Translations under genes and position numbers: made by a program
Notes under the pieces: model-generated
Told to the model about the DNA's origin: nothing
The model's database searches: none
What the model saw: only the letters and a program-made list of their open reading frames with translations
Shown: in pieces, positions 4,182 through 34,541 of the stretch
Position numbering within the stretch: the stretch's first letter is position 1
Layout of the letters: every line of letters starts with the position of its first letter
IMG/VR virus record: IMGVR_UViG_3300007734_000687
Span: 1-41,121 of that record
Reading direction: 5' to 3' (one strand)
Source of the DNA: a virus
DNA: 41,121 bases

Positions 4182-4686
4182 TGATTATGAAAAAACGCGA
4201 AAATCCATTGAGTATGTACTCAGAAAATTCAATCTTTCCATTGAAGCTACAGATCTTACTCAAGAATATTTTCTTAGAAAACTTGAAGGAAAATCGAGAT
4301 CTCAATCCATTGAAAACTTTGTTATTGATTATTTACGGAAATACTCAGGTCGCAAAGGGACAGCTTCATATGATACGAGAAAGTCTTTGCTCTTTGGAGA
4401 CACAGAACAAATTGAAAATATTAGAACAGAATTATCAAGCACAAATTGCGATCACGAATATACAGATCATAATTCAAAATTTAGAAGATATGTTAAAAAT
4501 GAAAGAATAATTCATTTGCTGGATATGGGTTATTCTAAAAAAGAAATTTCAATTGAATTAAATATTTCAAGCTCACGTGTTTCTCAGTTAGTAAAAAAAA
4601 TAAAGTTTAGATATGAAATTTTTAATTTTTTATCTATGTTAAATCTTAATAAAAACACAATGGATATTATAATAAATGAATTTTAA
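4162..4686 (+). CDS. Sigma-70-like (ECF-type) transcription factor
   Basis: 174 residues from the ATG at 4162; a TTG at 4153 would add three residues. The N-terminal half resembles sigma region 2 (A-T-D-L-T-Q-E-Y-F-L-R-K-L, then a helix ending Y-L-R-K-Y and a basic stretch). The C-terminal half has a region-4-type helix-turn-helix (M-G-Y-S-K-K-E-I-S-I-E-L, then I-S-S-S-R-V-S-Q-L-V). The size fits an ECF-like factor. It could redirect host RNA polymerase to late phage promoters. It overlaps the GH108 gene by 20 bases. Divergent; it could be a sigma-derived DNA-binding protein without promoter-melting activity. Confidence 0.6.
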   Translation: MLNLEINDYEKTRKSIEYVLRKFNLSIEATDLTQEYFLRKLEGKSRSQSIENFVIDYLRKYSGRKGTASYDTRKSLLFGDTEQIENIRTELSSTNCDHEYTDHNSKFRRYVKNERIIHLLDMGYSKKEISIELNISSSRVSQLVKKIKFRYEIFNFLSMLNLNKNTMDIIINEF

Positions 4687-5173
4687 TCTATCAAGGCAAG
4701 AACAATTAGTTTGCAATTACTTAAAAACAAGTATGACTAACAAAGAAATTGCAGATAAGTTGTGTGTTTGCGAAAAAACTGTTAAATTTCATTTGACTAG
4801 TATTTATAAAAAACTTTCTGTAAGAAATAGATCAGGCGCTTTAATAAAACTTTGTACTATTAGTTTTGAATTTGATGAAATATTAACATATCCAATGGAG
4901 AATAAAATGCAGGATGAAAAATCTTTGCCAAGTAAATTTAATCAAGTAATTGTAAAAGAAAAACAAAATATGTCTCAAGTCGAAAAAGTCAATTTTATTG
5001 ATAAGCAATTCATGATCTCAGAAACGATGAATCATTTAGGATTTTTGATGAAAGAAATTACTAAAGAAAAAATTGACACTAATACAGTAAATGCAGCTTG
5101 CAATTGTATTGCAAGAATGAATGAGACTATCAATACAAGTATACAAGCTGCTCGATTTTTAAACGATAGATGA
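4676..5173 (+). CDS. LuxR/GerE-type helix-turn-helix regulator
   Basis: 165 residues. Residues 5-60 are a clear GerE domain: L-S-R-Q-E-Q-L-V-C-N-Y-L, then T-N-K-E-I-A-D-K-L-C-V (first HTH helix), then E-K-T-V-K-F-H-L-T-S-I-Y-K-K-L (recognition helix), with V-R-N-R after it. The remaining 100 residues are helical and unrecognised; there is no receiver or autoinducer domain, unlike most host LuxR proteins where the HTH is C-terminal. It overlaps the sigma-like gene and likely acts with it in control of phage transcription. Confidence 0.75.
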   Translation: MNFNLSRQEQLVCNYLKTSMTNKEIADKLCVCEKTVKFHLTSIYKKLSVRNRSGALIKLCTISFEFDEILTYPMENKMQDEKSLPSKFNQVIVKEKQNMSQVEKVNFIDKQFMISETMNHLGFLMKEITKEKIDTNTVNAACNCIARMNETINTSIQAARFLNDR

Positions 5174-5958
5174 CTAGATTAAGTTGGGACAATGAAAAAT
5201 TAATGTACGTTAGTTTTTTAATTGAGTCAGGGATGACTAATCCCGACATTGCTAAATTGCTAAATACAACAAGCCACGCGATTAATAATATTACTTGTAA
5301 AAAATTAAATGGTAATAATAATTATTATAAATCTAATATTAAACATAAGCATCTAAGAAAAGAAGTTTTAAATTATTTTCTTAACCATACTATGGAGCAA
5401 ACTGCTAAACATTTTAATCTTTCACTATCTGAATTAAAATCATGTTTAACTTATGCCTATAAAGAAAAAAGATATTTACATCTTAGAAAAGACAAAAGAA
5501 GACATGATTCATGGTCAACAAAAGAATTGATTATTGCTTTAAAGCTATCAGGTTTAGTTGATAGATCTTTAATTGCAAAGATTTTAAAACGAGGGACTTA
5601 TCAATCAGTGAAAGAATGCTATTCTAGATTAAATATTAATAGTAAGTCTATGAACGGTATTACATATTCAAAATACAAAAGTTTGTTTTCTAAGGGACCT
5701 TCTAAATTTTTAAAAACTACAGCCGGACCATGTGGTGGTTTTATTCGCGATTCTAATTACAAAATTATTCCATGGACTATCCTGAGAGACGAAATAGAAT
5801 CAGGATACATAAAGCCATCTATTTTTTTCTGTAATTACGTAGAAAGTATGTGTTTGTTTTACGACTGGATATATGAAGGACAATATTCTTTAGATAGTAT
5901 TAGCAATTTTTTAGTTGAAACTTTTAAAAATTCTCCTTCACAACTTAACCAATCCTGA
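5170..5958 (+). CDS. Multi-HTH DNA-binding protein
   Basis: 262 residues with at least three helix-turn-helix-like units: residues 5-40 (L-I-E-S-G-M-T-N-P-D-I-A-K-L-L), 62-90 (M-E-Q-T-A-K-H-F-N-L-S-L-S-E-L) and a SANT/Myb-like unit at about 112-150 (S-W-S-T-K-E-L-I-I-A-L-K, then Y-Q-S-V-K-E-C). The C-terminal 80 residues are unrecognised. The ATGA overlap couples it to the GerE-type gene. Tandem HTH units suggest binding to a long or repeated operator; possibly a late-gene activator. Confidence 0.6.
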   Translation: MTRLSWDNEKLMYVSFLIESGMTNPDIAKLLNTTSHAINNITCKKLNGNNNYYKSNIKHKHLRKEVLNYFLNHTMEQTAKHFNLSLSELKSCLTYAYKEKRYLHLRKDKRRHDSWSTKELIIALKLSGLVDRSLIAKILKRGTYQSVKECYSRLNINSKSMNGITYSKYKSLFSKGPSKFLKTTAGPCGGFIRDSNYKIIPWTILRDEIESGYIKPSIFFCNYVESMCLFYDWIYEGQYSLDSISNFLVETFKNSPSQLNQS

Positions 5959-5971
5959 TTAGCATTTAACC

Positions 5972-6283
5972 ATGGTAAATCTAATTACGAATCAAGATCT
6001 AGATACTCTGACGGACTATGAAGTCTTAATCTTTAATTACGTACTACAAAACATAAAGTACAAAGAAATAGCTTGTAAGCTTGATCTTGAGTACTACGTA
6101 GTGGCTGAGACTGTAAGAGATGTATACCGTAAATTTCGTATATATAAGCATTCTAACGAGTATCTAAGAGAAGTTTGGAAACGATCAGTAGAGCATAACC
6201 AAAAAGAGCTTAAGAAAAAACGTGATTTATTGCTACCTGTTTCACTTAGTGAGTATCTACAAAAACAAACGGCCTCTAACTAG
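5972..6283 (+). CDS. Small GerE-like HTH protein
   Basis: 103 residues; residues 11-60 follow the GerE pattern (L-T-D-Y-E-V-L-I-F-N-Y-V, then Y-K-E-I-A-C-K-L, then V-V-A-E-T-V-R-D-V-Y-R-K-F). A basic helical tail follows (K-K-K-R-D). It resembles the N-terminal part of the protein at 4676, so it may be a shortened paralogue acting as partner or antagonist. It is the last of four consecutive regulator genes and ends in a hairpin overlapping its stop codon. Confidence 0.6.
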   Translation: MVNLITNQDLDTLTDYEVLIFNYVLQNIKYKEIACKLDLEYYVVAETVRDVYRKFRIYKHSNEYLREVWKRSVEHNQKELKKKRDLLLPVSLSEYLQKQTASN

Positions 6284-7702: not shown

Positions 7703-8974
7703 TCATACTATTGGCAAATGAGACATAAATAAAAAACTCATATCAATAGCATAACCGATATGCTGGACTGATATATGTTTTAAATGCTGCGTCACTTTTA
7801 ATGCTTCACTGAAGTATAAAGTTTTTAATTTCTCATCGGTATTTTTAATCGCTAACTCGCGATATATATTTATAAGTTGTAAAAAGGTTTGCAAATTATT
7901 CGGTTTAATCTTTAAAATCTCTTCGCATATTTTTAAAGCAATATCAAATTTACTAGCCCTCATGGCAAGATCAACAGCAAAGTTTAAAACTTCACTAGAG
8001 TTAGGACAACACTTAATTGCAAAATCAATATATTCTTTCTTAACAAAGTCCCATCCTTGTTTAAAAGCTTGCTTACGTTGATGTTCAAATCGTGTAATAT
8101 GAGCTAGAGGAAAATCTTGATATGTTCTAATAGCATTTTCATAATCATTTTCTTGCATAAAATCGTTAGCTTTTTTAATGTTTGCCATTCTATTTTTAAT
8201 ATCTTCAATATTTTCTTTAACTATTTCAATTCCCAATTCTGGTAATACTGAACAAAGGTATGTTGAGTCATAAATAAAATGATCTTGCTTTTCTATTTTA
8301 AAACCAGCTTTAGTAAGCATCCCTTCAAATATATTCCTAGTCCAAACATTTATATGGTTAGTGTCGTAGTAATATTCTAAATCAAATCCTGCCATTCCAA
8401 AATTAGTCATAGAATCAAACCACGTCGGTACTGAAATATAAAGTCTACCGTTTTCTGAAAGACATTTACGATAACGAAGTAATTCTTTGTCGAAGTCTAG
8501 TTGATGCTCTGCTACTTTATAGCTCATGATTAAATCATATTTTTTAGTATCATCAAACTCATCGTCTAAATTAATTTTAAATTCGTGGTAGCAAACTCTC
8601 TTAAAAGACTCGGTCAATTCAGTACCAAAAATTTCACAGCCTTTAACTACCATTCTAAACCAATTTAATACCATACCAAATGCTGCACCGATTTCTAATA
8701 TCTTTGGCTTAAGGTCTTTATCATTTTGCTCTTTAATCCAGTCTTTTAAAAAAGCCTCGTGATAGTATAATTTCTTTTGACCTGTAAAAATATTATTTGA
8801 AGTTGGCGCAGGTCTATAGTCTTTTTTATAGTGCTCTAGAATTTCAGATTTTTCTTTCCATAAAGAGGGATAAGAAACAAAGCCGCAATTTTTGCATATA
8901 GACATCTGTTTAGGTTTTAAACGATATTGGTCTACTACTTCCCAGTCGTTACTATGACAATTAATACATTCCAT
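7703..8974 (-). CDS. Zinc-ribbon SAM methyltransferase with TPR-like tail
   Basis: 423 residues in three parts. Residues 1-35 form a zinc ribbon (C3-C6, C27-C30). Residues about 88-250 are a class I SAM-dependent methyltransferase: motif I I-L-E-I-G-A-A-F-G (92-100), then the acidic motif II region G-T-E-L and the post-II segment Y-D-L-I-M-S-Y-K-V-A-E-H. Residues about 260-420 look like helical TPR-type repeats. Zinc-ribbon methyltransferases of this layout often act on nucleotide-linked sugars. It starts on the stop of the DAHP-synthase-like gene (TAATG), so it likely works in the same sugar cassette; the substrate is unknown. Confidence 0.7.
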   Translation of the reverse strand: MECINCHSNDWEVVDQYRLKPKQMSICKNCGFVSYPSLWKEKSEILEHYKKDYRPAPTSNNIFTGQKKLYYHEAFLKDWIKEQNDKDLKPKILEIGAAFGMVLNWFRMVVKGCEIFGTELTESFKRVCYHEFKINLDDEFDDTKKYDLIMSYKVAEHQLDFDKELLRYRKCLSENGRLYISVPTWFDSMTNFGMAGFDLEYYYDTNHINVWTRNIFEGMLTKAGFKIEKQDHFIYDSTYLCSVLPELGIEIVKENIEDIKNRMANIKKANDFMQENDYENAIRTYQDFPLAHITRFEHQRKQAFKQGWDFVKKEYIDFAIKCCPNSSEVLNFAVDLAMRASKFDIALKICEEILKIKPNNLQTFLQLINIYRELAIKNTDEKLKTLYFSEALKVTQHLKHISVQHIGYAIDMSFLFMSHLPIV

Positions 8975-9795
8975 TATTCCAAAGCCTTTCGTATTTTATT
9001 TATTTTTTTCATCGTAGATTTAAATTGCTCAAAACTTAATGCTTGATCTTTGTCTGATAAACTATTGTCTGGATCGTTATGAAATTCGATTAGAACACCA
9101 TCGGCTCCAGCGGCAACACCTGCACAGTTCATAGACTCTACTAAATCACTTCTACCGGTGCCATGACTAGCATCGCAAATAATTGGTATATTAGTAATCA
9201 ATTTAACTGCCGGAATAATACTAACTGAAAGATCCCATCTAGTATGATCTAGGAAACTAGAGCTACCTCGCTCTATTAATACGACGTTAGCTTTTTTATT
9301 TCTAAGTAAGTATTCAGCAGAGCCAAGCCATTCGTCGATTGTAGAGCCTTGGTTACGCTTTAAAAAGACAGTACGTTTTAAAATAGATAGACGATCTAGT
9401 AGTGAGTAATTCTGCATTTGTCTTGAACCGACTTGAAAGCAAGTAGAGTATTTCATAATCAAATCTAAAGAGGGTTGAGTATAGTCTAAGACTTCTATTA
9501 TATTTTCTAAGTCATATTTTTGAGCGGCTTCATAATAATTACCGAGCAAAGAGTCATCAATAAAACCAAAATTCTTTGATGGATAAGTACCTGCACGAAA
9601 GACACCGCCACGTAAATGCGTAGCTCCTTCACTAGCTGCTATATTTGCTATTTCAAAAATTTGTTCTTTAGACTCCACAGAGCAAGGCCCAGCGATAACT
9701 ATAAATTTCTTTTCAGGCGGTTTATAATTTATAACATTCATATAACTAGGAGTTGGCCCCCATTGCCTTTGAAATTTAAATTCATCTCTATTCAT
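8974..9795 (-). CDS. DAHP-synthase-fold (class I beta) enzyme with altered sugar-phosphate motif
   Basis: 273 residues, full length for the TIM-barrel core of type I-beta 3-deoxy-7-phosphoheptulonate synthases. Metal ligands are present: Cys38 (G-P-C-S-V-E-S), His211 (D-A-S-H-G-T-G-R), Glu237 (L-I-E-F-H) and Asp248 (S-D-K-D-Q). Residues that hold phosphoenolpyruvate in the family are also kept: Arg62 (L-R-G-G), Arg125, Lys146, Arg176. The erythrose-4-phosphate motif K-P-R-T/S reads R-A-G-T (67-70), so the aldehyde substrate may differ. The enzyme would condense PEP with a sugar to a 3-deoxy-ulosonate. It is surrounded by methyltransferase, cytidylyltransferase-GT2 and radical SAM genes, not aromatic amino acid genes. 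Confidence 0.85.
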   Translation of the reverse strand: MNRDEFKFQRQWGPTPSYMNVINYKPPEKKFIVIAGPCSVESKEQIFEIANIAASEGATHLRGGVFRAGTYPSKNFGFIDDSLLGNYYEAAQKYDLENIIEVLDYTQPSLDLIMKYSTCFQVGSRQMQNYSLLDRLSILKRTVFLKRNQGSTIDEWLGSAEYLLRNKKANVVLIERGSSSFLDHTRWDLSVSIIPAVKLITNIPIICDASHGTGRSDLVESMNCAGVAAGADGVLIEFHNDPDNSLSDKDQALSFEQFKSTMKKINKIRKALE

Positions 9796-9802
9796 TTTTC
9801 CT

Positions 9803-10162
9803 CTAATATGATTTTTTTCTTAGATATGCTTCAAACTCTGCTTCTAATTTTTTCTTATCGTTTTTAAATTTGCTAAATTGTTTAGCAATAAGAGGATCGT
9901 TACAAGGATTATTTACTTTAATCTTAAGAATATTTTTTGCTGTTTTTTCAAGCGAATGGATAAGCCGAAAATACCATATATTAATTTCTTCAGTATTTAA
10001 TTTCTTTTTTGATAACTCGGACATGCCCAACTGAAGTCTATATCTAGTTCTTACTAACTCTTCGATATTTAATTTACTCATTTGTAAAGTTAAGTAATTA
10101 TTCCATCGCTTAGTATCACCGCTTGCATAGAGCTGCATTAAATCAATAGAATCATATTTCAT
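9803..10162 (-). CDS. Hypothetical helical protein in the sugar cassette
   Basis: 119 residues, basic and helical, with a Tyr/Arg-rich middle (L-V-R-T-R-Y-R-L-Q-L-G) and a coiled-coil-like C-terminus (K-K-K-L-E-A-E-F-E-A-Y-L-R-K-K). No catalytic motif or membrane segment is visible. It overlaps the 3' end of the cytidylyltransferase-GT2 gene by 11 bases and precedes the DAHP-synthase-like gene by 7 bases, so it is co-translated with them. It could be an adaptor or assembly factor; this is guesswork. Confidence 0.6.
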   Translation of the reverse strand: MKYDSIDLMQLYASGDTKRWNNYLTLQMSKLNIEELVRTRYRLQLGMSELSKKKLNTEEINIWYFRLIHSLEKTAKNILKIKVNNPCNDPLIAKQFSKFKNDKKKLEAEFEAYLRKKSY

Positions 10163-11453
10163 TTAAAATATTCTTTCTGATCTCTTCTCTTTTTTCAAGA
10201 TTATTCTTGCTTAGGCTAAGTGGATGCTGTCGATAAAAGAAAATTGGTTCTTCATAATAACCAACTTTAAGTTTATCATATGCTCTTAAGAATAAATCTA
10301 AGCCCTCAAAACCCCTTAAACCATCTGTAAACTTCAAAAAGTTTAAAGCTTTTTTATAGAATAATGCTCCACCTACATGATGAGAAACCATACCTGATTG
10401 AATCTTATCTAAATCACCAAAGAAATTTGAAGGATAAACAACTTCTGAATTTGTCTCATCCATAAAAGACTTTACTTTTTTAATCGCATAATTGCTTGTA
10501 AACATATCATCGGCATCAAGCCGAATAATATACTTACCCTCTGATTTATTTAAAGCAATATTTGATGAACTCGCTAGACCTAAATTTTCAGAATTTCTAA
10601 TTACTTTAATGAAAGAATATTGAAGAGCGTAGTCAGTAATTATTTTAAAAGTACTATCGCTTGAAAAATCATCGACTATTATATATTCAAAATCAATGTC
10701 CTTTTGATTTATAATACTCTTAATACACTCTTCTATATATTTTTCACCATTATATACGCAGGTATAAATAGTGATTTCTGGTAGCTTATTAATTACTTTT
10801 AAATAACGACTATTATTTATATACTCGACGATGGCTTTTAATCCTACGTCATTACCAAGCTGCGAGAAGAGATATTCGAAGAGAGTTAGATCTTTAGTAT
10901 AGTCGATAAGAAATCTTAAATTAGATTTTGAAGTAATAATAGGAGTATAATTAAATTGATTAACAGCGACTAATTTAATTGCATAACTTATAAATTCAAC
11001 TTCTCTAAAACGTCTTTTTGCTAAAGTTAAAGCGCGATCTGATATTATTTCAAAACCACACCCATCAATAAATTTAGTACTATATAAATAATCTATAATG
11101 ATTTTTTCTTCGACTAATTTAATGGCATTAAGTAATTCATCTGGATCAATTAAAATCTTGTCGTGAGTTATTCTTACGACATAGTCTAGGTTATTTTCAT
11201 TTGCACATTCTTCCATTCGCGCAAGTGGATCGTTATCATATTTTGAAGGGTGGAGTCTTACGTTTTGAAATTTAGTAAGATAAGAATAATCATTAAATTG
11301 CTCTCTAGGGAATGCTAAATATATTGGCAAATTAACTTTAGATATTCTATTTATTAAATGTTCGATTAAAGGAATACCATTGATTTTCTTAAAAACTTTT
11401 CGAGGTATTCTTTCGGAATTTGTCCTCGTACAAATAACTATACCTATTTTCAT
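10152..11453 (-). CDS. Cytidylyltransferase fused to a GT2 glycosyltransferase
   Basis: 433 residues, two enzymes in one chain. Residues 1-220 resemble the SpsF/CMP-sugar synthetase family (CTP_transf_3): R10-T-N-S-E-R-I-P-R-K near the start is the nucleotide-binding loop, and D-P-L-A-R-M (75-80) with Y-V-V-R-I-T-H-D (91-98) follow the SpsF pattern. Residues about 226-420 are a GT-A family 2 glycosyltransferase: I-Y-T-C-V-Y-N-G, V-D-D-F-S-S-D (260-266), and the DXD-type R-L-D-A-D-D (311-316). The first half would activate a sugar acid with CTP and the second transfer a sugar. The fusion argues that the two steps are consecutive. Confidence 0.8.
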   Translation of the reverse strand: MKIGIVICTRTNSERIPRKVFKKINGIPLIEHLINRISKVNLPIYLAFPREQFNDYSYLTKFQNVRLHPSKYDNDPLARMEECANENNLDYVVRITHDKILIDPDELLNAIKLVEEKIIIDYLYSTKFIDGCGFEIISDRALTLAKRRFREVEFISYAIKLVAVNQFNYTPIITSKSNLRFLIDYTKDLTLFEYLFSQLGNDVGLKAIVEYINNSRYLKVINKLPEITIYTCVYNGEKYIEECIKSIINQKDIDFEYIIVDDFSSDSTFKIITDYALQYSFIKVIRNSENLGLASSSNIALNKSEGKYIIRLDADDMFTSNYAIKKVKSFMDETNSEVVYPSNFFGDLDKIQSGMVSHHVGGALFYKKALNFLKFTDGLRGFEGLDLFLRAYDKLKVGYYEEPIFFYRQHPLSLSKNNLEKREEIRKNILNEI

Positions 11454-11465
11454 TTACTACTCTTT

Positions 11466-12416
11466 CTAACTATCAATGCTTGGTTTAAATCCACTATAAG
11501 ACTCATAGCTAGAACACGATTTGCAAGGATCTTTGTCAAATGCTTTTTTGCTTAAAAGATCAGATCTTAATTTTTTTGCTTTGTCTGAATTGAAAATATC
11601 ATAAATTGATTCGGTATTAGTGTTACCTAAATAATGCTGACCTTTAATATCAGGACAGCATGCACCTACTTTACCGTCGTGATGAATGATAAGTCTCGCG
11701 TGCGCCTGTATACAAGACTGTCTTTCTTCTGATCTATTACGATGCTCTAGCTCTGATAAGTCTTTGTCTACACGACCTATCACCATATCTCGAATAGAAA
11801 TTAAAGCTGTTGGCCACCGTCTTTTAATTTCGCTTTCAAGATCCTCATCTTTATTTAAAAGTGTTCTTACTGCCTGAATAACGATCTTAGTTTCGCTTCT
11901 AATTCTAGATTTATGATTATAAAATAAGTCTATATTTTCAGAAACTAAATCGAAATTTGCACCTGTTCTTTGTTTGTTAAATACTTCTGGAATAAATGAA
12001 TCAAAAGATACTTTAACTTTAGTAAGATTCGATAGGCCTTCGAAAATAGACTCTCGCCTGGAAGGATGAAAAAAGAAATTAGAGTTTGCGAGACGATCTA
12101 TAAAAGTTGAATTATAAGAAAGATTTTTACAGTGTTTAGTAATTAAAGAATAGTTAGGGTTAAGAGTACTTTCGCCTCTGTAATTAAATTTTATTGAATG
12201 CACGTTTAAAATTGCTGCCTGATCTATTATTGACTTTGCTAAATCCAAAGACATAAAACCTTTTTTAAAAGGCAATGTCGATTGATCTGAATGATAGCAG
12301 TAAGAGCATTGTAAACTGCAAGCCGATGATAGCTCTAAACTTATATCGACTGGTACTTTTAAATCTAAAGTCTGTGCATTTAAATATTTGTAGCGATATA
12401 GTTCATAGTTATTCAT
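11466..12416 (-). CDS. Radical SAM enzyme with SPASM-type C-terminus
   Basis: 316 residues. The radical SAM 4Fe-4S motif is C33-X3-C37-X2-C40 followed by Y-H-S-D. A later G-E-S-T-L-N-P (81-87) corresponds to the SAM-binding GE region. The C-terminal cysteines C235, C253-C254, C298 and C301, with H-H-D-G-K-V-G-A-C-C, fit an auxiliary-cluster SPASM/twitch domain. Such enzymes modify sugars, peptides or small molecules by radical chemistry. It lies between a fibre gene and the cytidylyltransferase-GT2 gene in one operon; the start overlaps the fibre stop (TAATG). The substrate could be a nucleotide sugar or a virion peptide. Confidence 0.8.
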   Translation of the reverse strand: MNNYELYRYKYLNAQTLDLKVPVDISLELSSACSLQCSYCYHSDQSTLPFKKGFMSLDLAKSIIDQAAILNVHSIKFNYRGESTLNPNYSLITKHCKNLSYNSTFIDRLANSNFFFHPSRRESIFEGLSNLTKVKVSFDSFIPEVFNKQRTGANFDLVSENIDLFYNHKSRIRSETKIVIQAVRTLLNKDEDLESEIKRRWPTALISIRDMVIGRVDKDLSELEHRNRSEERQSCIQAHARLIIHHDGKVGACCPDIKGQHYLGNTNTESIYDIFNSDKAKKLRSDLLSKKAFDKDPCKSCSSYESYSGFKPSIDS

Positions 12417-13372
12417 TAATTTAAAATTTCTCTTGCTGAAAAATAAATATCACCTAATGAAAGAGAAGCTGTTGTTGTTACTCCGCCATTAGTATATCTT
12501 GTATAGGCAAGACTAAAATTATATGTTCCCGCAACTTGAGCAGAATAAAATTTATAACCACAGCCTACAGTAAAATTAAATGCTCCAGATGTTGGAGCTT
12601 TTATAATAGATTCGGTATAGTCTAAATCAACGCCATTTAATGTAAAAATAATACGACCATATTGATCTTTATTCGCACTAGAATTACTATCTACTAATAT
12701 AAGACCTCTTGCTGCTAAACATACTTCAATTGGATTGCCAAGTGTCGTAATTGTAATTGTTGTGCTAGCAATTTGTGTGCTTGATGTAGTACATCCTAGA
12801 TTATTAATACTTGAATAGCGTTGTGCAATGCCTCCTGCTGAGGCTACGCTAGAAACTGAGATAGGTGTAAATCTTTGGAATAAAATAGATTTTAATTCTG
12901 TAGAACTAACTGAAGTTGTAGTAATGCCTCCAACAACTGTATTGAAAATTGTATTCGCATAAACGCCACCTACTTTAAGTGAACTTATAGTAGTACCGTT
13001 TATTATATGATCGAAATAACCTGTAGTCGTAGGGATACTAAAAGAACACTTATCAAGTCCAAATCTATATCTTTCGACTGAATCAATATCTAAAACTAAA
13101 GCTTTATTTGATGCAGAAGTATCACCTCGTAGTAACAACTGAGCCGCTGTAGTAGTAGAACCTCTAAAGTCTATATCTCTACAATAAATAGAGCGCCATC
13201 TATATTCGCTAGAGCCAAGATCGTAAGACAAATTATTTGCAGTTATAGTGAGTGGCTCTATAGGTACTATATGACCACGATAGTTCGAGAAGTTTGTGTT
13301 AACGTAGCTTGCTCTCGCTTTAGTATTTGCTGCGAAAGTATAATAACTTGTAATCGTCGCTGTAGCTGGCAT
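12416..13372 (-). CDS. Tail fibre / receptor-binding structural protein
   Basis: 318 residues, Ser/Thr/Asn-rich and beta-structured. The N-terminus (Y-T-F-A-A-N-T-K-A, then V-N-T-N-F-S-N, then D-L-G-S-S-E-Y-R-W-R-S-I-Y) is the familiar phage fibre pattern of a virion-attachment head followed by a D-L-G-S...W..I-Y unit. The C-terminal half (about 200-318) is a distinct beta domain that ends the distal fibre. The first residues resemble the fibre at 14303, suggesting a shared attachment site. It lies directly upstream of the sugar-enzyme cassette. Confidence 0.7.
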   Translation of the reverse strand: MPATATITSYYTFAANTKARASYVNTNFSNYRGHIVPIEPLTITANNLSYDLGSSEYRWRSIYCRDIDFRGSTTTAAQLLLRGDTSASNKALVLDIDSVERYRFGLDKCSFSIPTTTGYFDHIINGTTISSLKVGGVYANTIFNTVVGGITTTSVSSTELKSILFQRFTPISVSSVASAGGIAQRYSSINNLGCTTSSTQIASTTITITTLGNPIEVCLAARGLILVDSNSSANKDQYGRIIFTLNGVDLDYTESIIKAPTSGAFNFTVGCGYKFYSAQVAGTYNFSLAYTRYTNGGVTTTASLSLGDIYFSAREILN

Positions 13373-13381
13373 TTTTAATCC

Positions 13382-13724
13382 TTACTTGTTTTCAAGTTTA
13401 TCAACTTTACTAGATAGTTCTTTAATTGCTGCAATTATTAGCGGAATAACATCTGTATATCCTAATCCTAAAGTCTTATCTTTATCAGTATTAACCTCAA
13501 TTGCTTCTGGTAATACTTTTTGTACATCTTGGGCAATAAGCATAACTCTTCTCTTATCTTTATCATCGTATTTATAACGTCCGATAACAGTGCGAAGAGT
13601 ATTTAGTTTTTTAAGTCCATCCTCTATCGGCTCTATAATAATTTTTCTTCTCTCATCTGAAGTCGTAACCCATACTATCCATAAGTTCTTGAAGTACTTT
13701 TGACTTTATATCATTTACGTTCAT
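13382..13724 (-). pseudogene. S74/endosialidase-type chaperone domain ORF without an in-frame start (frameshift)
   Basis: Two frames are needed. ATG at 13724 (after the upstream fibre gene) opens a 23-residue frame ending at TGA 13653-13655. The frame +1 to it, open from 13705 to the TAA at 13382, encodes a peptidase S74 intramolecular chaperone domain: T-T-S-D-E-R-R-K-I-I-I, then M-L-I-A-Q-D-V-Q-K-V-L-P-E-A, then I-I-A-A-I-K-E-L. That frame has no ATG, GTG or TTG before the domain. Either one base has been gained or lost, or a +1 shift joins the halves. S74 domains trimerise fibres and then cleave themselves off; the fibre at 14303 carries its own copy. Confidence 0.65.
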
Positions 13725-13727
13725 AAA

Positions 13728-14303
13728 TTATTCCTTTACCAAAGTTGTGACTACATAAGCTATTTGACCTGTAGTAACTGCCCAAACTAATCTTACAAAA
13801 CTAAATTGTGGGTCTACTTTCTCATGCATAAAATCTGCTGTTACTGTTACGTTGTTAGTGATTGAAGCTAAGTCAAACCACAAAATATCATCAGGACTTA
13901 CTTGAACCTTATAGCTTCCACCTGAAATTGAAGCAGGAGTAACAGTATGAACACCTGTGCCAGTGTCCGTAATATCTACGGCTGTTCCTGCTAGTGCATT
14001 AACTGCTGATGTAGCTAGCTTAAAAGTGTCTGCATCAATTTTTATAATCCAATAGTTTGTGGCAGATAAGCCAGCTGGTAATGTCGTAGTAGTGGAAGCT
14101 GCTACTTTTAATCCTGTTGCATACCCATGAGCTGCTGCGGTACATACGTCTGTAACTGCCGCTGTAAATGTTTTTGCTGCTGGGGTAGCTACAGTAGTAT
14201 TAATATAAATACCGTAACCCTTTGCTGATTTAACGTTTATAGAGCTAAGATTTAATGCTGCTGCTACATTTCCACTTTGCGTATTTAAGTTTGATACATT
14301 CAT
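13728..14303 (-). CDS. Virion/fibre-associated beta-domain protein
   Basis: 191 residues. Residues about 45-125 match a common phage structural module: F-T-A-A-V-T-D-V-C-T-A-A-A-H-G, then L-P-A-G-L-S-A-T-N-Y-W-I-I, D-A-D-T-F-K-L-A-T-S and I-T-D-T-G-T-G-V-H-T-V, a small beta-sandwich seen as a decoration of tail and fibre proteins. The remaining C-terminal part is another beta unit. It starts on the stop of the fibre gene upstream. Probably a fibre-bound or tail-tip accessory protein. Confidence 0.6.
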   Translation of the reverse strand: MNVSNLNTQSGNVAAALNLSSINVKSAKGYGIYINTTVATPAAKTFTAAVTDVCTAAAHGYATGLKVAASTTTTLPAGLSATNYWIIKIDADTFKLATSAVNALAGTAVDITDTGTGVHTVTPASISGGSYKVQVSPDDILWFDLASITNNVTVTADFMHEKVDPQFSFVRLVWAVTTGQIAYVVTTLVKE

Positions 14304-15856
14304 TATTTATTCTCCAAATTTTGTATTCTAGTTAGTAATTCTTGATTTTGTTGTGATAGTTTTTGAATGGCTCCCCACATAGTTTTGTAAAGTTGGTCAA
14401 CTTGTAAATCTAAACAGTCCTCAATAATAGAGCCATCTAGTAATGTTACAGGATTAATTGTTACAGCTTTAGGAAATACTTTTTGAACATCTTGTGCAAT
14501 CCAACCTAAACTATTTCTATCATTTATTTGATTGTCCGAATATACCTCATTTTTCCATTGGTAATGTTTTAAAGGAATAGTATTTACCATTTCTAAACAT
14601 CTATCCAAATTTGCTGGAACTACATTAGTTTTGATTCTCTCATCTGAAGTAATAGTCCAAGTGTTAGTGGTAGGTTTTTTAGCACTATCTGTATTTAATT
14701 GTAGTAATGATGTTGGAGTTATGCCTAGCCCAAGCTGGCCGCTTGTATCGATATTTATAGCAGATGATGGGCCTGAAAATTGAAATTGAGTTGCCCTAAG
14801 TTCCATAGGAATATTTGCGCCTTTAGCATCATTATAAGCTTGCAAACAAATTGCTCCACTAAGGGCAACAGCTGCACCAACTCCAAAATTTATATTTGAG
14901 GATGACTTTACTTGTAATGGGTCTTGTGGAGTAGCTATTCCAATTCCAACTTTTCCTGAAGTCAAAATTCGCATTGCCTCTATTGCACCATTGTTACCAA
15001 CATTAAAAGAAATGAAATCTGAAGTGCCGACTCCAGAAGTAGATACTAAAATTAATGAACTACTAGCAGCCACTCCTCCATGAATTTGAGGAGAGGTTAA
15101 TTTTGTAGTAAAAGTAGGACTTGTATTAAACACTAAACTCCCAGAACCAGTCTCGTCCGAAATTACTCCTGCAAGTTCTGCTGAAGTTGTTGCAGCGAAA
15201 ACTGAAAGTTTATCAGCAGTGACAGTCAAGGTTTTTGAAGTTGGGATAGTTGTGCCGTTAAAGGTTCCTGCACTTGTAATATTACCAGCTGTACTAATTG
15301 CAAAAGGTGCAGTAGGACCAGTAAAAGCAAACTCTGTAGCTCTTAATTCAAAAGGAATATTTGCGCCACCTGTATCATTAATTGCAGATAGAGCAACAGA
15401 TCCAGTTAGCGCCACAGCATCTGAAACTAATATGTTTTTATTTGTTGCTGCTTTAACTTGTAGAATATTTGTTGGCGCAGCGATACCAACCCCAACATAA
15501 CCGCCACTCTCGCAGAATGTAATATTACGATAACCAGTGCCTTGCTCAATAACACTAAAAGCAAGTCTTCTACTTGATGCTGTTGCGCTAGTAAATAAAA
15601 CCATACTAGCTTGTAATTGAGAAGCCGCAGCATCATTTGAGTAAATAGCTATAGTGCCTTCGCCACCACTCCCAGCCGTTGCCTTTGCTGCTGTACCTAA
15701 AACGAAGCCATTATGAGAAGCGATATTGCTATGATATTTAACATCTAAAGATCCAGTTGATGAATTATTTTTATTAGTCAATAAGCATAGAGCAAAATTT
15801 GCATTTACTTCTGCTGATTTAATCGTCGTATTAGGCGAAAAAGTAGTAACTGGCAT
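14303..15856 (-). CDS. Tail fibre with C-terminal S74 intramolecular chaperone
   Basis: 517 residues. A short N-terminal attachment segment (T-T-F-S-P-N-T-T-I, then V-N-A-N-F) is followed by a long Gly/Ala/Ser/Thr-rich repetitive shaft, in which two blocks containing V-A-L-(S/T)-G and G-A-N-I-P-(F/M)-E-L-R-A-T are internal repeats. The last 120 residues are a peptidase S74 domain: I-T-S-D-E-R-I-K-T-N-V, then L-G-W-I-A-Q-D-V-Q-K-V-F-P-K-A, and a C-terminal coiled coil. S74 domains fold trimeric fibres and self-cleave at the Ser of the S-D-E-R region. This is likely the main host-recognition fibre. Confidence 0.8.
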   Translation of the reverse strand: MPVTTFSPNTTIKSAEVNANFALCLLTNKNNSSTGSLDVKYHSNIASHNGFVLGTAAKATAGSGGEGTIAIYSNDAAASQLQASMVLFTSATASSRRLAFSVIEQGTGYRNITFCESGGYVGVGIAAPTNILQVKAATNKNILVSDAVALTGSVALSAINDTGGANIPFELRATEFAFTGPTAPFAISTAGNITSAGTFNGTTIPTSKTLTVTADKLSVFAATTSAELAGVISDETGSGSLVFNTSPTFTTKLTSPQIHGGVAASSSLILVSTSGVGTSDFISFNVGNNGAIEAMRILTSGKVGIGIATPQDPLQVKSSSNINFGVGAAVALSGAICLQAYNDAKGANIPMELRATQFQFSGPSSAINIDTSGQLGLGITPTSLLQLNTDSAKKPTTNTWTITSDERIKTNVVPANLDRCLEMVNTIPLKHYQWKNEVYSDNQINDRNSLGWIAQDVQKVFPKAVTINPVTLLDGSIIEDCLDLQVDQLYKTMWGAIQKLSQQNQELLTRIQNLENK

Positions 15857-19903: not shown

Positions 19904-20440
19904 TTATATTGCCTTTTTTTTGTTCTTTGCTATCTGACTCAATTCCTACCCTAGTGACTAATAAATTAAATTGAAACTTATCGGCATCTAATTTTAAAAA
20001 CTCAGAAGGAGCCGTGTTATATCTACGAGCAATAATATCTAGCTCGTATAATTTCTCACGACTTAGATAAGTTATTTCACTTTTTTTTTTCCGTAAGTGA
20101 AAAACATAATCTCTTCATAAAGTTTCGTTACCATATCCCAATCAACAAAAAGTCTTTCGATTAAAATTTTATCTGGCTCTTCTTTTAAGCTAAGCTTTGG
20201 ACTTACTACACCTGCGTATAAAACATGTGAGAAATGTTCTTTAACTTTTTTATCAGTTAATTCATCTTGAGTACCCTTTCCAACGCGATAAGTTTCAAAA
20301 ACTTGAAGCATTGATTTTGATCCATCAAGATAGTTAAGAGCATTAATTTTTTTAATCCTAAACTTAACTCCTTTTATTTTAACGGTCTTAGTAGCCTCTA
20401 AAACCGTCTCTAATTTTTTATCAAAAAACCAATTAAGCAT
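19872..20440 (-). CDS. Tail assembly chaperone, -1 frameshift product (GT type)
   Basis: The zero-frame chaperone (20440 leftward) runs into a ten-A stretch. A -1 slip there carries translation past the TAA at 20072 into a frame open for 69 more codons to TAA at 19872-19874, giving a 189-residue fusion. The extension is a helical segment (Y-L-S-R-E-K-L-Y-E-L-D-I-I-A-R-R-Y) ending in a charged tail. This is the conserved gpG/gpGT arrangement upstream of the tape measure gene. In lambda the fusion binds tape measure and recruits tube subunits. The extension overlaps the tape measure start by 32 bases. Confidence 0.85.
20072..20440 (-). CDS. Tail assembly chaperone, zero-frame product (G type)
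   Basis: 122 residues, mixed alpha/beta with a basic N-terminal half (K-I-K-G-V-K-F-R-I-K-K-I) and helical C-terminal half ending Y-G-K-K-K-V-K. Size and position, between the major tail protein and the tape measure, are those of gpG-type chaperones. The ATG overlaps the tail tube stop by 8 bases. The ratio of this form to the frameshifted form is normally critical for tail assembly. Confidence 0.8.
   Translation of the reverse strand: MLNWFFDKKLETVLEATKTVKIKGVKFRIKKINALNYLDGSKSMLQVFETYRVGKGTQDELTDKKVKEHFSHVLYAGVVSPKLSLKEEPDKILIERLFVDWDMVTKLYEEIMFFTYGKKKVK
20081..20092 (-). other. Slippery site for -1 ribosomal frameshift
   Basis: On the minus strand GG followed by ten A and then GTG: the frame reads GGA AAA AAA AAA GTG. 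A-site and P-site lysine tRNAs can re-pair one base back on such a run. The -1 frame is open for 69 codons, and this gene pair is known to use -1 frameshifting in most siphoviruses. No strong downstream stem was identified by eye. Confidence 0.8.
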
Positions 20441-21479
20441 AAGTCGACGTATTATTCGTTACGATAGCTTTAACCATATAACCACTAGTTGTCGGATCTC
20501 TTAGAATTTTAAAAGATACTTCGCTAGTAAGAATATCACTTGGACCTCCAACCTCTGGATCTCCCGCCTCTGAAATAACCACGAAAGGCATAGTAAGTTT
20601 TAAGCCCTCGCGCGCGGCTGAAGAAGCCATTGTATTACCTAAGAATTCAAACTCAGCAGCAAATCTCGTACCTGCTATCATAGCATCGTAGGCTGTAGTC
20701 GTATCGAATCTAATAGTACATTTTAATTCAGTTGTAGCTAAGCCTGGAGGCAATACTTGAATTGTATCTGTTCCAATTCTACGAGAGCCAGTATCACTCT
20801 TTAAATCATTTGCTAATTTAAATTCGAAAGATTGGACATGCCAAAATGAAGTAGTTGTAAGTCCTGCTGTAGTCGTTTCTATAGAAAATCTACCGTTAAC
20901 AAAACTTAATGGATTCTGAGTAAGTGTTGTAAGAACAGAAGAAACATCCGAACCAGCCGTAGCATCTTGGCCTATAAGAGATGCTGAGCATTTTAAAGCA
21001 TCGTCAATTTCAGCAGAAAAAGTTAATTCGTTAACTCTTAATCCTTGATACTGAAAAACTTTACCAGCCGTTGCATCGCCTTTTCGCATATTTATGCAAA
21101 GACTTGAGTAAGTTGTTAAGAAATTATTGATATCAATAGTATGCTTAAAACCTAAACCGCCTACCGTCTCACCCGTTGCTGTTGCTGTAGTAACGGCACC
21201 ACCACCGAAAGCATTTTGTAAAATATAATTACAAGCTGCATTTATTGGCGAGAAATAAAATTCCATATCTCCAGACAATGACTTTCCTAATTGAACATAA
21301 TTCGAATTAGTTCTAGAAGTCTGCACCTCTTCTAAGATTTTAACGTCTTTAGTAATTTTCAAACTAGCAGATAGAAAATTTAAACCAGCGGTACAAGTGT
21401 TATATGTCCCGTATGTTAACTCCCTACCAATTGCTAGATACGATAACGATGCGATCGCTGCGCCTTGACCTACTGCCAT
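20433..21479 (-). CDS. Major tail tube protein
   Basis: 348 residues, beta-rich, with the tube-protein look: A-I-G-R-E-L-T-Y-G-T-Y near the start, repeated S-G-D-M-E-F-Y-F, V-N-E-L-T-F-S-A-E-I-D and F-E-F-K-L-A-N-D-L segments, and a C-terminal V-S-F-K-I-L-R-D. It is preceded by a strong AAGGAG and directly followed by the chaperone pair and the tape measure. As the single tube gene with no sheath gene beside it, it argues for a non-contractile tail. The DUF115-like gene lies just upstream. Confidence 0.8.
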   Translation of the reverse strand: MAVGQGAAIASLSYLAIGRELTYGTYNTCTAGLNFLSASLKITKDVKILEEVQTSRTNSNYVQLGKSLSGDMEFYFSPINAACNYILQNAFGGGAVTTATATGETVGGLGFKHTIDINNFLTTYSSLCINMRKGDATAGKVFQYQGLRVNELTFSAEIDDALKCSASLIGQDATAGSDVSSVLTTLTQNPLSFVNGRFSIETTTAGLTTTSFWHVQSFEFKLANDLKSDTGSRRIGTDTIQVLPPGLATTELKCTIRFDTTTAYDAMIAGTRFAAEFEFLGNTMASSAAREGLKLTMPFVVISEAGDPEVGGPSDILTSEVSFKILRDPTTSGYMVKAIVTNNTSTYA

Positions 21480-21491
21480 AAATAATTCTCC

Positions 21492-22478
21492 TTACACAGT
21501 TTGATAGACAGTTCTCTGGTGATCTTTTTCTATCTCCAGTAAAGCTTTTTCTATTTTTAATTTTTCTTCAATAACTTTTTGTAATCGTGCTACTTGACTA
21601 ATAACTATACTTGAATCTTCAGTTTTATATTTATAAGTAATTTGATCTTTTAATTTACCAGTTTTAATTCTAGTAAGAATAGATCTATCTGTACAGTTTA
21701 CAATATTAAGTTTAAATGATTTTACATAAGTCTCAAGCCAAGAACTAGACATATATAAATTACCTGAAGTATATGCAAAATGATGTCCTGTAGTCATACA
21801 GTATTGATGTTTCATATAATCAGCTTTTAAATCACCATCTTTATTAAAAGCATAATACTTACCATCAGCACACCATGAATAATCATAACCAATTAAAGCA
21901 ATCTTATCATAACCAAAGAAATTTTGCTTACCTTGATTATCACATTGAGTAAGCATAATAACCATCGCATTAGAGACATTCGTTCCAGCCGGTATAATAT
22001 TATTACATCCAGAAATCTTTTGAAACTCTAACTCGGAATTTAAAATATCTTTATTGATGAAAAAATAGATCTTTTTCCAATTTCCATTCTTAGCCCATTT
22101 AGGATTCGCACAAACGTTTATTAAAGCAATTGTATCTTTTAACTGATCTTTATATTTCTCCATATAAAGCTCATAGTTCACATTAGCGTCGCATATAAGA
22201 CAATACTTAGGCTTAATTCCATGATCTAATAAATGACCTAAAGTTTTGTCACAACAAATAATATCTGTTTGATCTTTATAATCGATGAGAGTTTGAATAT
22301 TTTCTTCGAAAGAATAACCATTAGCAACAGCAACAATAACCTTACCTATCCCAGTTAACGCAAGATCTGATAAAGAATGTTGTTTAAATTTAGAATGCTC
22401 TAAAGCTTGCTCTCGCCATTGTACACACCATTGACCATAAGCTGCTTTAGATTGCTCGAGTATCTGTTGATCTGTCAT
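21492..22478 (-). CDS. DUF115/Maf-like protein (possible nonulosonate-type transferase)
   Basis: 328 residues. The DUF115 signature is recognisable: V-I-V-A-V-A-N-G-Y-S-F-E-E-N (47-60) in place of the usual G-x-G-P-S-L-D-x-N, then I-I-C-C-D-K-T-L-G-H-L-L-D-H-G-I-K-P (73-90) and C-L-I-C-D-A-N (93-99). The last 40 residues are a coiled coil. In flagellated bacteria, Maf proteins with this domain transfer pseudaminic or legionaminic acid from CMP-sugars to flagellin; MptE homologues are pyrophosphokinases. The canonical G-P-S is replaced by N-G-Y-S. It lies between the tail-completion genes and the tube gene, suggesting action on tail protein. Confidence 0.6.
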   Translation of the reverse strand: MTDQQILEQSKAAYGQWCVQWREQALEHSKFKQHSLSDLALTGIGKVIVAVANGYSFEENIQTLIDYKDQTDIICCDKTLGHLLDHGIKPKYCLICDANVNYELYMEKYKDQLKDTIALINVCANPKWAKNGNWKKIYFFINKDILNSELEFQKISGCNNIIPAGTNVSNAMVIMLTQCDNQGKQNFFGYDKIALIGYDYSWCADGKYYAFNKDGDLKADYMKHQYCMTTGHHFAYTSGNLYMSSSWLETYVKSFKLNIVNCTDRSILTRIKTGKLKDQITYKYKTEDSSIVISQVARLQKVIEEKLKIEKALLEIEKDHQRTVYQTV

Positions 22479-32153: not shown

Positions 32154-32636
32154 TTATTCTTTGTTAAGAGGTTTTTTCTTTTTAACTGGAGTCACATCTA
32201 TAATACCAGCTTGCTCTCTTGCCTTTTTATTGTCCTCTATTAGATTTAATATCTTATCGTGTAATGTAACTTTAGTTTGTACTTCGACGGTTTCTTTTTG
32301 TTTGCCCAGAAGTCTATCGAATATAAAGCTTAGTCTTATTTGATCGCCCTTACGAGCTGCTTCGATAAGTATACGAGCTATTAGCATCTCTAAAACTGGA
32401 CTATCACCCTTTTTAGCAAATTCAATTAAGTCTTTAAACTTCCAGTCTAAGAATTTAGTAAGTACGCGTTCGCAATCCTCTGTAGTAAATTTCTTTGCAT
32501 CATTCACGTCGTAACATGGTGTTCTTCCTGGCGATGGCCAGAATGGACACTTTCCTTTCTCGAAATCTTTACCGCCAAATTTTTGAAGAGGAGATCTCCC
32601 ACCTGATCCCACATTAGTAAGTCTTATAAAATTCAA
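32154..32636 (-). CDS. Terminase small subunit-type protein
   Basis: 160 residues. Residues about 75-120 have the pattern D-S-P-V-L-E-M-L-I-A-R-I-L-I-E-A-A-R-K-G-D and F-I-F-D-R-L-L-G-K-Q-K-E-T-V-E-V, characteristic of small terminase subunits; the N-terminal K-C-P-F-W-P-S-P-G-R-T-P region contains two cysteines. A basic tail follows. The ATG overlaps the epimerase by 23 bases; GTG at 32612 is an alternative start. It would recognise packaging DNA and stimulate the large subunit, which follows. Confidence 0.7.
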   Translation of the reverse strand: MNFIRLTNVGSGGRSPLQKFGGKDFEKGKCPFWPSPGRTPCYDVNDAKKFTTEDCERVLTKFLDWKFKDLIEFAKKGDSPVLEMLIARILIEAARKGDQIRLSFIFDRLLGKQKETVEVQTKVTLHDKILNLIEDNKKAREQAGIIDVTPVKKKKPLNKE

Positions 32637-33552
32637 TTGTACGATCTAGACCTTCGTCTAGATTAACATTAACTTTATAACCAAGATCCTCTTCGGCTAG
32701 AGCAATTGAAGCATAGCTAACTTGAGTTTCATTTGCTCTAGCAGCTTGATAAGCAATTTTCTTATCTAGTTTTAATGAAATTTTTTCTGCCAAATCTTTT
32801 ATAGTAGTAGGTATTCCCGTGCCTAAATTATAAACAAGATTGTCTTGATGATTCTTTTCTAAAGCTAGAACTATTCCCGAAACTATATCAGAGACATATG
32901 TAAAGTCCCTGACTACAGATCCGTTACCATTAATAGTTATAATATCGTCGTTTATAAATGATGGTATTACTGCAGAGTACTGACTACTTGCTAACTGCAT
33001 CGGTCCATAGACATTAAAAAATCTTAAACCGATTGTTGAAATATTATTAACGCGTGCATAGATATCGCAAAATTGCTCATTACTAAACTTAGAAAGTGAG
33101 TAAGGAGAGTTTGGCTTTGGCTCTATTAATTCGTATCGCATCTCTTCTTTACAGTTACCATAAACGCTTGATGAGCTAGCATAGATAAATTTCTTTATCT
33201 CTAGTCTCTTAGCTATAGTCATAATATTTATAAATCCAGTTACATTATTTGAAAACGTATCAATAGGTAACTCGAAAGATCTAGTAACTGAACCCATTGC
33301 AGCAAGATGAATTATAGCATCTATTTTTTCATGATAAACAATAGCTGTTAAAACATCTAACGATCTAATATCAGCTCTAAAGAATTTAAAATTACGCCAA
33401 TTATTACCAACTTGTTTTTTAATTATGCTAAAAGTTTCTTTATGTGAGTTTGAAAGGTTGTCTATTCCTAGGACTTCATATCTATCATTTAAAAGCTTGA
33501 TAAGTAGGTTTGATCCGATGAAGCCAGCGCATCCAGTTAGTAGAATTCTCAT
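32614..33552 (-). CDS. NAD-dependent sugar epimerase/dehydratase
   Basis: 312 residues, a complete extended short-chain dehydrogenase: G7-C-A-G10-F-I-G13 nucleotide loop, D-I-R (61-63), H-L-A-A (82-85), S127-S-S-V (catalytic Ser region) and Y151-S-L-S-K155 catalytic pair. Closest in style to UDP-glucose/UDP-GlcNAc 4-epimerases or nucleotide-sugar dehydratases. It overlaps the dehydrogenase-like gene (4 bases) and the terminase small subunit, so it is translated with packaging genes. It would supply a nucleotide sugar, perhaps for virion or host-surface glycosylation. Confidence 0.85.
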   Translation of the reverse strand: MRILLTGCAGFIGSNLLIKLLNDRYEVLGIDNLSNSHKETFSIIKKQVGNNWRNFKFFRADIRSLDVLTAIVYHEKIDAIIHLAAMGSVTRSFELPIDTFSNNVTGFINIMTIAKRLEIKKFIYASSSSVYGNCKEEMRYELIEPKPNSPYSLSKFSNEQFCDIYARVNNISTIGLRFFNVYGPMQLASSQYSAVIPSFINDDIITINGNGSVVRDFTYVSDIVSGIVLALEKNHQDNLVYNLGTGIPTTIKDLAEKISLKLDKKIAYQAARANETQVSYASIALAEEDLGYKVNVNLDEGLDRTIEFYKTY

Positions 33553-34541
33553 TTATCAGTACCTCTATAAGATAGATTTAAATCGATGATTAATTTTATA
33601 AAGTCTGCTTCACTTTGAAAATCATTACTGTTTAAATAGCCTAGAAACGATTCCATATTTTGAGGAAAACATTTTCCACCATAACCTAATTTGCCATCGG
33701 GCCCAGGTACTTGCGTATGATTTTTTAAATCTATGTAGCCAGAAATTCCCATACCTTCCTTTATATTTTCAATATTAGCATCATGGTATTTTGCAATATT
33801 ATTAAGCATATTAAAATAAGTAACCTTAAGAGCTCCGAAACAGTTATGAGCATACTTAGATAACTCACATTCAAGATTGCTCATTTGAATAATGATTTTA
33901 TTTGGAAATAAATCGTTAAGGATTTTTGAATCACAAGGTCCACATAATATCGGAAGTCTCTTAGCATCTTCATCCGCAGTTCTTTGCGTGAAAAATTCAG
34001 GCATCGAGATCGTACCAAGTTTGTCATTTACACCCATTAGAACGGTTGATCTTATAAAAATATGCTCTGTAATACCTCTAAAACGGTTAACTATACCTTC
34101 AAGAGCAGCTATACTCTGGCCATCCATTGATGAAAATACTGGTATACATATAAAGATGGCATCGACGTCTTCGAAATCATCGTTAAAATCTAAAACTGGA
34201 TCCAAGCACTTAATTTCATGTATAGTATTAAGTTCAAACCATCTCTTTAAAGTAGAGCCAACGAAACCAAGACCTACTATACCAACTTTAAGTTTATTTA
34301 TTTCTTGCTTAACGTAATTTGTATTAAAATTTTTGTTACTATAGTCTACTCCACATTTTCTACATACTTGGGCTTGATGAGTAAACCAAGGAGCCTGACC
34401 TTGGTCTTGGTATATCTGATTTGTAGACATATAATCATTTTGAAATACGTCTTGGTTTATAACAAATAGTAAGTCATCGCAGTTTTTACAGAAAAATTGA
34501 GTATTTTTTTTATACAAAATTAAATTTAAAGTAGACGACAT
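33549..34541 (-). CDS. Zinc-ribbon protein with shortened UDP-sugar dehydrogenase domain
   Basis: 330 residues. Residues 15-65 hold a zinc ribbon (C18-K-N-C21 and C60-R-K-C63). Residues 83-300 are a UDP-glucose/GDP-mannose dehydrogenase-like domain: G-L-G-F-V-G (90-95), I-R-S-T-V (163-167), P-E-F-F-T-Q-R (181-187) and the catalytic-cysteine block G-Y-G-G-K-C291-F-P-Q. The protein ends about 40 residues after this Cys, so the C-terminal UDP-binding domain of normal family members is missing. It is the first gene of the leftward late operon. It may be a dehydrogenase using another partner or a derived regulator. Confidence 0.7.
   Translation of the reverse strand: MSSTLNLILYKKNTQFFCKNCDDLLFVINQDVFQNDYMSTNQIYQDQGQAPWFTHQAQVCRKCGVDYSNKNFNTNYVKQEINKLKVGIVGLGFVGSTLKRWFELNTIHEIKCLDPVLDFNDDFEDVDAIFICIPVFSSMDGQSIAALEGIVNRFRGITEHIFIRSTVLMGVNDKLGTISMPEFFTQRTADEDAKRLPILCGPCDSKILNDLFPNKIIIQMSNLECELSKYAHNCFGALKVTYFNMLNNIAKYHDANIENIKEGMGISGYIDLKNHTQVPGPDGKLGYGGKCFPQNMESFLGYLNSNDFQSEADFIKLIIDLNLSYRGTDK

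Follow-up and report, generated by a model that had tools for sequence, protein, structure and literature searches.

A predicted phage pathway that may decorate the virion with an acidic 3-deoxy-ulosonic sugar

Analysis of IMG/VR virus contig IMGVR_UViG_3300007734_000687, whose full length of 41,121 bases is referred to here as the window, suggested that a five-gene cassette and a Maf-like gene in the same leftward operon probably form a pathway, its activities being predicted, for adding an acidic 3-deoxy-ulosonic sugar to the phage's own virion. The synthase of this pathway has the fold of 3-deoxy-D-arabino-heptulosonate 7-phosphate synthase (DAHPS), and in some related phages its place is taken by a NeuB-family gene. 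As a more tentative extension, these phages, an uncultured family of tailed bacterial viruses, may glycosylate their tail tube much as bacteria glycosylate flagellin; the sugar would be a new ulosonic acid, and the DAHP synthase making it would have acquired a new function and been swapped repeatedly with a NeuB-type enzyme in the same operon slot.

The structural genes of the window form one leftward block, comprising terminase, portal, protease, head, tail-tube, tape-measure and fibre genes, and the cassette lies within this operon, 3′ of three fibre-like genes (12416-15856), where the original prediction had placed it. All five minus-strand open reading frames (ORFs) were confirmed in coordinates, strand and spacing, with neighbours overlapping by 1-11 bases or separated by at most 12, and the families proposed for them held as well. 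These ORFs encode a radical S-adenosylmethionine (SAM)/SPASM enzyme (11466-12416; SPASM, 45.7 bits); P0004, a fusion of a cytidylyltransferase (residues 1 to ~222; CTP_transf_3, PF02348, 39.5 bits against a cut-off of 22.6) and a family 2 glycosyltransferase (GT2; residues ~223-433; Glycos_transf_2, PF00535, 107.5 bits) at 10152-11453; a small protein with no family match in profile scans (9803-10162); P0002, the predicted DAHPS-fold 3-deoxy-ulosonate synthase (8974-9795; DAHP_synth_1, PF00793, 158.4 bits against a cut-off of 25.5); and a class I SAM methyltransferase, presumably acting on sugar (7703-8974; Methyltransf_23, 49.4 bits). The CxxxCxxC and SPASM cysteines of the radical SAM enzyme were invariant in 16 sequences, and its score against Radical_SAM was 22.6 bits, below the cut-off of 29.5. 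The methyltransferase has an N-terminal CxxC..CxxC zinc ribbon, its cysteines invariant in 15 sequences, and a weak C-terminal part resembling tetratricopeptide repeats. In the structural model of P0004 (pLDDT 90.3), the cytidylyltransferase part matched 6oew (Z 26.9, 2.2 Å over 224 residues) and the GT2 half matched 6p61 (Z 28.1); from family and fold, we infer that the N-terminal half is a CMP-sugar synthetase.

The survey for the same gene order in other phages that the original prediction had suggested found it in contigs of related uncultured phages. The order fibre, radical SAM enzyme, cytidylyltransferase-GT2, small protein, synthase and methyltransferase was kept in most of the contigs covering it, far beyond chance because these contigs share only 30-60% protein identity; an explanation as a chance neighbourhood was rejected. 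The small protein, 29-48% identical in 13 relatives, was conserved with both of the synthase variants described below. In a remote group (L018, L020, L021 and G031), the radical SAM enzyme, fusion, synthase and methyltransferase were present, and no recognisable small protein was seen. Finding these relatives required mixed alignments, as single-protein scans of viral contigs were insufficient: those with P0002, P0004 or the major head protein gave no matches. An annotated phage collection contained no relative of the radical SAM or Maf protein; its only matches were DAHPS-like and lay in unannotated Listeria, Staphylococcus, Enterococcus and faecal records, where they are probably host DNA. 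Plasmid matches were mostly annotated as aroF or shikimate genes.

The original prediction had related the synthase to KdsA and, functionally, to NeuB through their superfamily. The nearest PDB relatives of P0002 are DAHP synthases, and its scores fell below the cut-offs for KdsA (TIGR01362, 59.5 bits against 314) and NeuB (PF03102, 20.3 bits against 22.1) but also below that of the curated DAHPS equivalog TIGR01361 (242.7 bits against 267.75). Viral contigs were scanned with P0002 and six bacterial DAHP synthases, which gave 80 loci, and P0002 was found to belong to a clade of 15 sequences (RAGTYP), the other members being 46-59% identical to it. In the DAHPS family, the motif KPR(T/S) binds erythrose-4-phosphate; KPR was retained in 35 of the 35 bacterial sequences checked, whereas RAGTYP replaced KPR(T/S) in every clade member. 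TRNTLD was likewise replaced by H-x-RWD throughout the clade (HTRWDLS in P0002), while C38, H211, E237 and D248, which we take to be the metal ligands, and the remaining phosphoenolpyruvate (PEP)-site residues were invariant across all 15. These sequence characters mark P0002 as a DAHPS paralogue that has diverged and lacks the erythrose-4-phosphate motif, and as neither a KdsA nor a NeuB.

In the synthase tree, the RAGTYP clade, a marine YGTYP group, a KPCTYP group and the sequence from contig L081 formed one branch of 27 sequences (Shimodaira-Hasegawa-like approximate likelihood ratio 95), all of them from viral contigs. A profile of the clade gave 223-258 bits for ordinary bacterial DAHPS and at least 328 for complete clade members. 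At a threshold set between these ranges, no bacterial clade member was found in 993 sampled genomes from three phyla, a sample rather than proof of bacterial absence, and the best 80 matches of an earlier genome contig scan were all ordinary DAHPS. The clade thus appears, so far, to be virus-only. Other arrangements were seen within the branch. One 60-kb viral contig (L062:6352-8519) carries cytidylyltransferase-like, KPCTYP-type DAHPS-like and, by eye, KdsA-like genes in a row, its KPCTYP-type synthase representing a third viral branch of the family. The 57-kb viral contig L081 (5941-9126) carries a radical SAM gene, a RAGTYP synthase and separate cytidylyltransferase and GT2 genes among several short-chain dehydrogenase/reductase (SDR) genes; Maf was not found in this record.

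Comparison with relatives revealed that the DAHPS-type gene can be exchanged in place. Several related Maf-bearing phages lacked it yet carried the radical SAM enzyme, fusion and methyltransferase, and in these phages the slot before the methyltransferase held a NeuB-family protein of 222-254 residues. These proteins scored above the PF03102 cut-off of 22.1 bits (47-77 bits for five and 23 for a decayed copy), and their nearest PDB relatives were sialic acid, pseudaminic acid and SpsE synthases. Among 32 methyltransferase-bearing contigs, 20 had only the DAHPS type, ten only the NeuB type, two had both and none had neither; in the subset of 17 found via Maf or the tube gene, independently of the synthase, the corresponding counts were six, ten, one and zero. 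Contigs with neither synthase do not cover the slot, because the methyltransferase is lacking there too. The two types were intermixed on the Maf tree (six changes, at least three of them forced by well-supported branches) and on a tree of the other cassette genes (four changes), indicating more than one exchange, although recombination between neighbouring genes could have inflated the count.

Two phages that carry both synthase genes close together in the slot appear to have been caught midway through replacement. In G019, an HNH-like ORF separates the two genes, whereas in G008 (L016:6322-7810) the NeuB-type and DAHPS-type genes are in tandem with a 14-base overlap. Decay was gauged at 35 positions at which eight NeuB-only phages all agree. 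The G019 NeuB copy had lost 15 of these, including both presumed metal histidines (H164K and H186N), and the G008 copy had lost nine with both histidines kept, compared to 0-6 of 35-41 residues in leave-one-out controls. Since one NeuB-only phage (G034) differs at five residues and the NeuB frame of G030 is broken, G019 is the clear case of decay and G008 no more than a suggestive one.

The in-place exchange with NeuB-family genes gives strong comparative support to the part of the original prediction in which a 3-deoxy-ulosonate is built, activated with CTP and attached. The likely transferase is not the GT2 half, however, but a Maf/MptE-like protein encoded outside the cassette (21492-22478, minus strand), presumably a CMP-ulosonate:protein O-glycosyltransferase. 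It scored 58.2 bits against PF01973 (cut-off 34.6), and its model (pLDDT 93.8) best matched the Maf structure 5mu5 (Z 22.1, 2.8 Å, 236 residues), residues 8-283 aligning to the central part of that protein (237-513). Maf enzymes transfer CMP-ulosonic acids onto Ser/Thr of flagellin. Taken with this biochemistry, the modelled fold suggests that the tail operon holds a likely CMP-ulosonate user. In the flagellar system, nonulosonic acids are the sugars that Maf enzymes O-link to flagellin, and both CMP-Neu5Ac and CMP-Kdo can be used by CbMaf (PMC11339370).

In the window, 12 bases separate the Maf gene from the tail-tube gene (20433-21479, minus strand; Phage_tube_2, 100 bits), whose product is the presumed acceptor. 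Maf was present in 13 of the 13 cassette phages of the group with enough sequence, each time directly upstream of the tube gene. Two further scans enlarged the set, in which a Maf gene preceded every tube gene whose contig extended 700 bases or more upstream of it; the two flagged exceptions proved to be split tube frames behind a Maf gene. The tail-tube protein is itself well conserved.

A marine phage group, whose module is unrelated, is predicted from sequence to possess all six activities, Maf included: cytidylyltransferase and GT2 are separate genes there, accompanied by the radical SAM enzyme, a PF01973 protein (100 bits), the methyltransferase and a synthase of the DAHPS type. This module lies near a different major head protein.

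We propose that P0002 would condense PEP and some aldose of the host, though not erythrose-4-phosphate, into a 3-deoxy-ulosonate, which the N-terminal half of P0004, judging by its family and fold, would convert with CTP to a CMP-sugar. The Maf homologue could then attach the sugar to a Ser or Thr residue in one of the virion proteins; Maf biochemistry and the universal adjacency of the two genes make the tail tube the likeliest acceptor. The GT2 half may extend the glycan using a nucleotide sugar, the methyltransferase may cap it, and the radical SAM enzyme may modify either the sugar or the acceptor. Two genes before the terminase gene, both on the minus strand, probably serve as accessories by supplying the GT2 half: an SDR nucleotide-sugar epimerase (32614-33552; phrog_540, 241.7 bits; Epimerase) and a UDP-glucose/GDP-mannose dehydrogenase-like protein with an extra N-terminal zinc-ribbon-like part (33549-34541; UDPG_MGDP_dh, 51 bits). 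This role is suggested by two relatives in which an SDR gene (G024) or a complete dehydrogenase gene (G026) lies inside the cassette.

Several observations weigh against this pathway. Genes that would supply an aldose precursor were not recognised, and a few relatives (G021, G030 and G032) have stops or broken frames. The NeuB-type slot proteins end with the barrel at ~222-254 residues; by length they have no C-terminal SAF domain, and the NeuB domain is the only one found in them, which leaves room for doubt about their activity. Maf of the phage consists of one unit of 328 residues rather than the three-domain, ~630-residue flagellar protein, and PF01973 also covers an archaeal pterin kinase. 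Finally, it is gene adjacency that marks the tail tube as the putative acceptor.

The original prediction had left the target as either a virion protein or the host surface. Transfer to O-antigen or capsule, changing the receptor late in infection or blocking superinfection, would fit the typical occurrence of CMP-ulosonates, GT2 and SDR genes in surface polysaccharide loci and the match of each half of P0004 to Leptospira proteins of its own family. Nevertheless, we consider this target unlikely: the genes sit in a structural operon, the transferase conserved among these phages and encoded next to the tube gene belongs to the Maf type, which glycosylates proteins, and the family scans recognised no flippase, polymerase or lipid-carrier enzyme in the window. 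With Maf encoded inside the tail operon and adjoining the tube gene, a virion protein is the favoured target. Which virion protein is less settled, and there is perhaps a one-in-four chance that the same pathway glycosylates fibre proteins instead of the tube. The cassette lies directly 3′ of fibre-like genes here and in most related phages, the nearest alternative acceptor being the fibre-like protein at 12416-13372 (minus strand), a relative of which precedes the radical SAM gene in most related contigs. In the marine group, no tail-tube homologue was recognised beside Maf, so the fibre reading stays open there. Against fibres as the target, the likely transferase always adjoins the tube gene, ~9 kb away, rather than the fibre genes.

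Two further explanations concern individual enzymes. The Maf/MptE-like protein might be a pyrophosphokinase or a non-catalytic tail-assembly factor, with the CMP-sugar used by the GT2 domain; its fold is shared by the Methanocaldococcus jannaschii pterin enzyme HPPK (Z 15.9) and thiamine pyrophosphokinases (Z ~9). This is slightly less probable than a host-surface target, as the Maf glycosyltransferase scores well above all other matches, sialyltransferases match too (Z ~10), and the gene accompanies the cassette in all testable contigs of the group. Moreover, the usual donors of GT2 enzymes are UDP-, dTDP- or GDP-sugars. Least probable is that P0002 is an ordinary auxiliary shikimate enzyme boosting aromatic amino acids, unrelated to its neighbours. 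Its DAHP_synth_1 score and PDB relatives would agree with such a role, but the loss of the erythrose-4-phosphate motif throughout the clade, the score under the curated DAHPS cut-off and the exchange with NeuB in the slot all speak against it, and a simple shikimate role was rejected on motif loss and slot exchange. A virion sugar pathway with Maf as its transferase thus remains our preferred reading.

Other features of the window were also recorded. On the minus strand at 6298-6266, 3′ of the last leftward genes, a 15-bp stem followed by a T-run is a plausible late operon terminator. Adjoining helix-turn-helix-like ORFs, one LuxR-like by eye, occupy 4676-6283 on the plus strand, and matches to the LuxR-like ORF were present in relatives too. 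Next to a ParB-like gene, a 310-residue ORF (35522-36454, plus strand) without a family match resembles, by eye, sugar-related CgeB-like proteins. The window gave no Rfam matches and no tRNAs, and a promoter scan was at chance level.

If the preferred pathway is correct, tailed phages produce an acidic sugar and link it to their own virions, adding a chemical layer of which the literature searched yielded no description and which could affect stability, adsorption or escape from recognition by the host; the synthase would represent a new branch of PEP-aldose synthases, a shikimate enzyme turned glycan enzyme. In open-access literature, a partial coverage without most subscription journals, we found nothing on phage Maf or phage ulosonate synthases. 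For phages such as mycobacteriophage Maravista, phage-encoded glycosyltransferases were proposed to act on virion proteins, and the abstract of that report describes no ulosonate synthesis, CMP activation or Maf (PMC11256854).

Among enzymes, P0002 shares with type I-beta DAHP synthases (AroA-beta; 1zco, 1rzm) the fold, the metal- and PEP-binding residues and ~40% identity, but differs in its lost KPR(T/S), its H-x-RWDLS in place of TRNTLD, its subthreshold curated score and its setting in a sugar cassette. The nonulosonate synthases NeuB, PseI and SpsE occupy the same gene slot in sister phages but belong to another family of the PEP-aldose synthase superfamily. The Bacillus spore coat polysaccharide (sps) genes likewise include a NeuB-family synthase, SpsE, and the phage GT2 half resembles SpsA (Z ~24), but their product is a spore surface polysaccharide rather than a Maf-linked protein glycan. 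The closest parallel is Maf-type flagellin O-glycosylation with nonulosonic acids in Campylobacter, Aeromonas and Clostridium botulinum (CbMaf), where a PEP-dependent ulosonate synthase, a cytidylyltransferase and Maf are encoded together and the Maf gene lies beside that of a helical tube subunit, the synthase being NeuB-family, as in part of the phages. The phage version differs in its tail operon location, its shorter Maf, its lack of recognisable precursor genes, its additional radical SAM, GT2 and methyltransferase genes, and the possible use of a DAHPS-fold synthase. In sum, the predicted system would work like Maf-type flagellin glycosylation moved to phage virions, with an alternative synthase fold.

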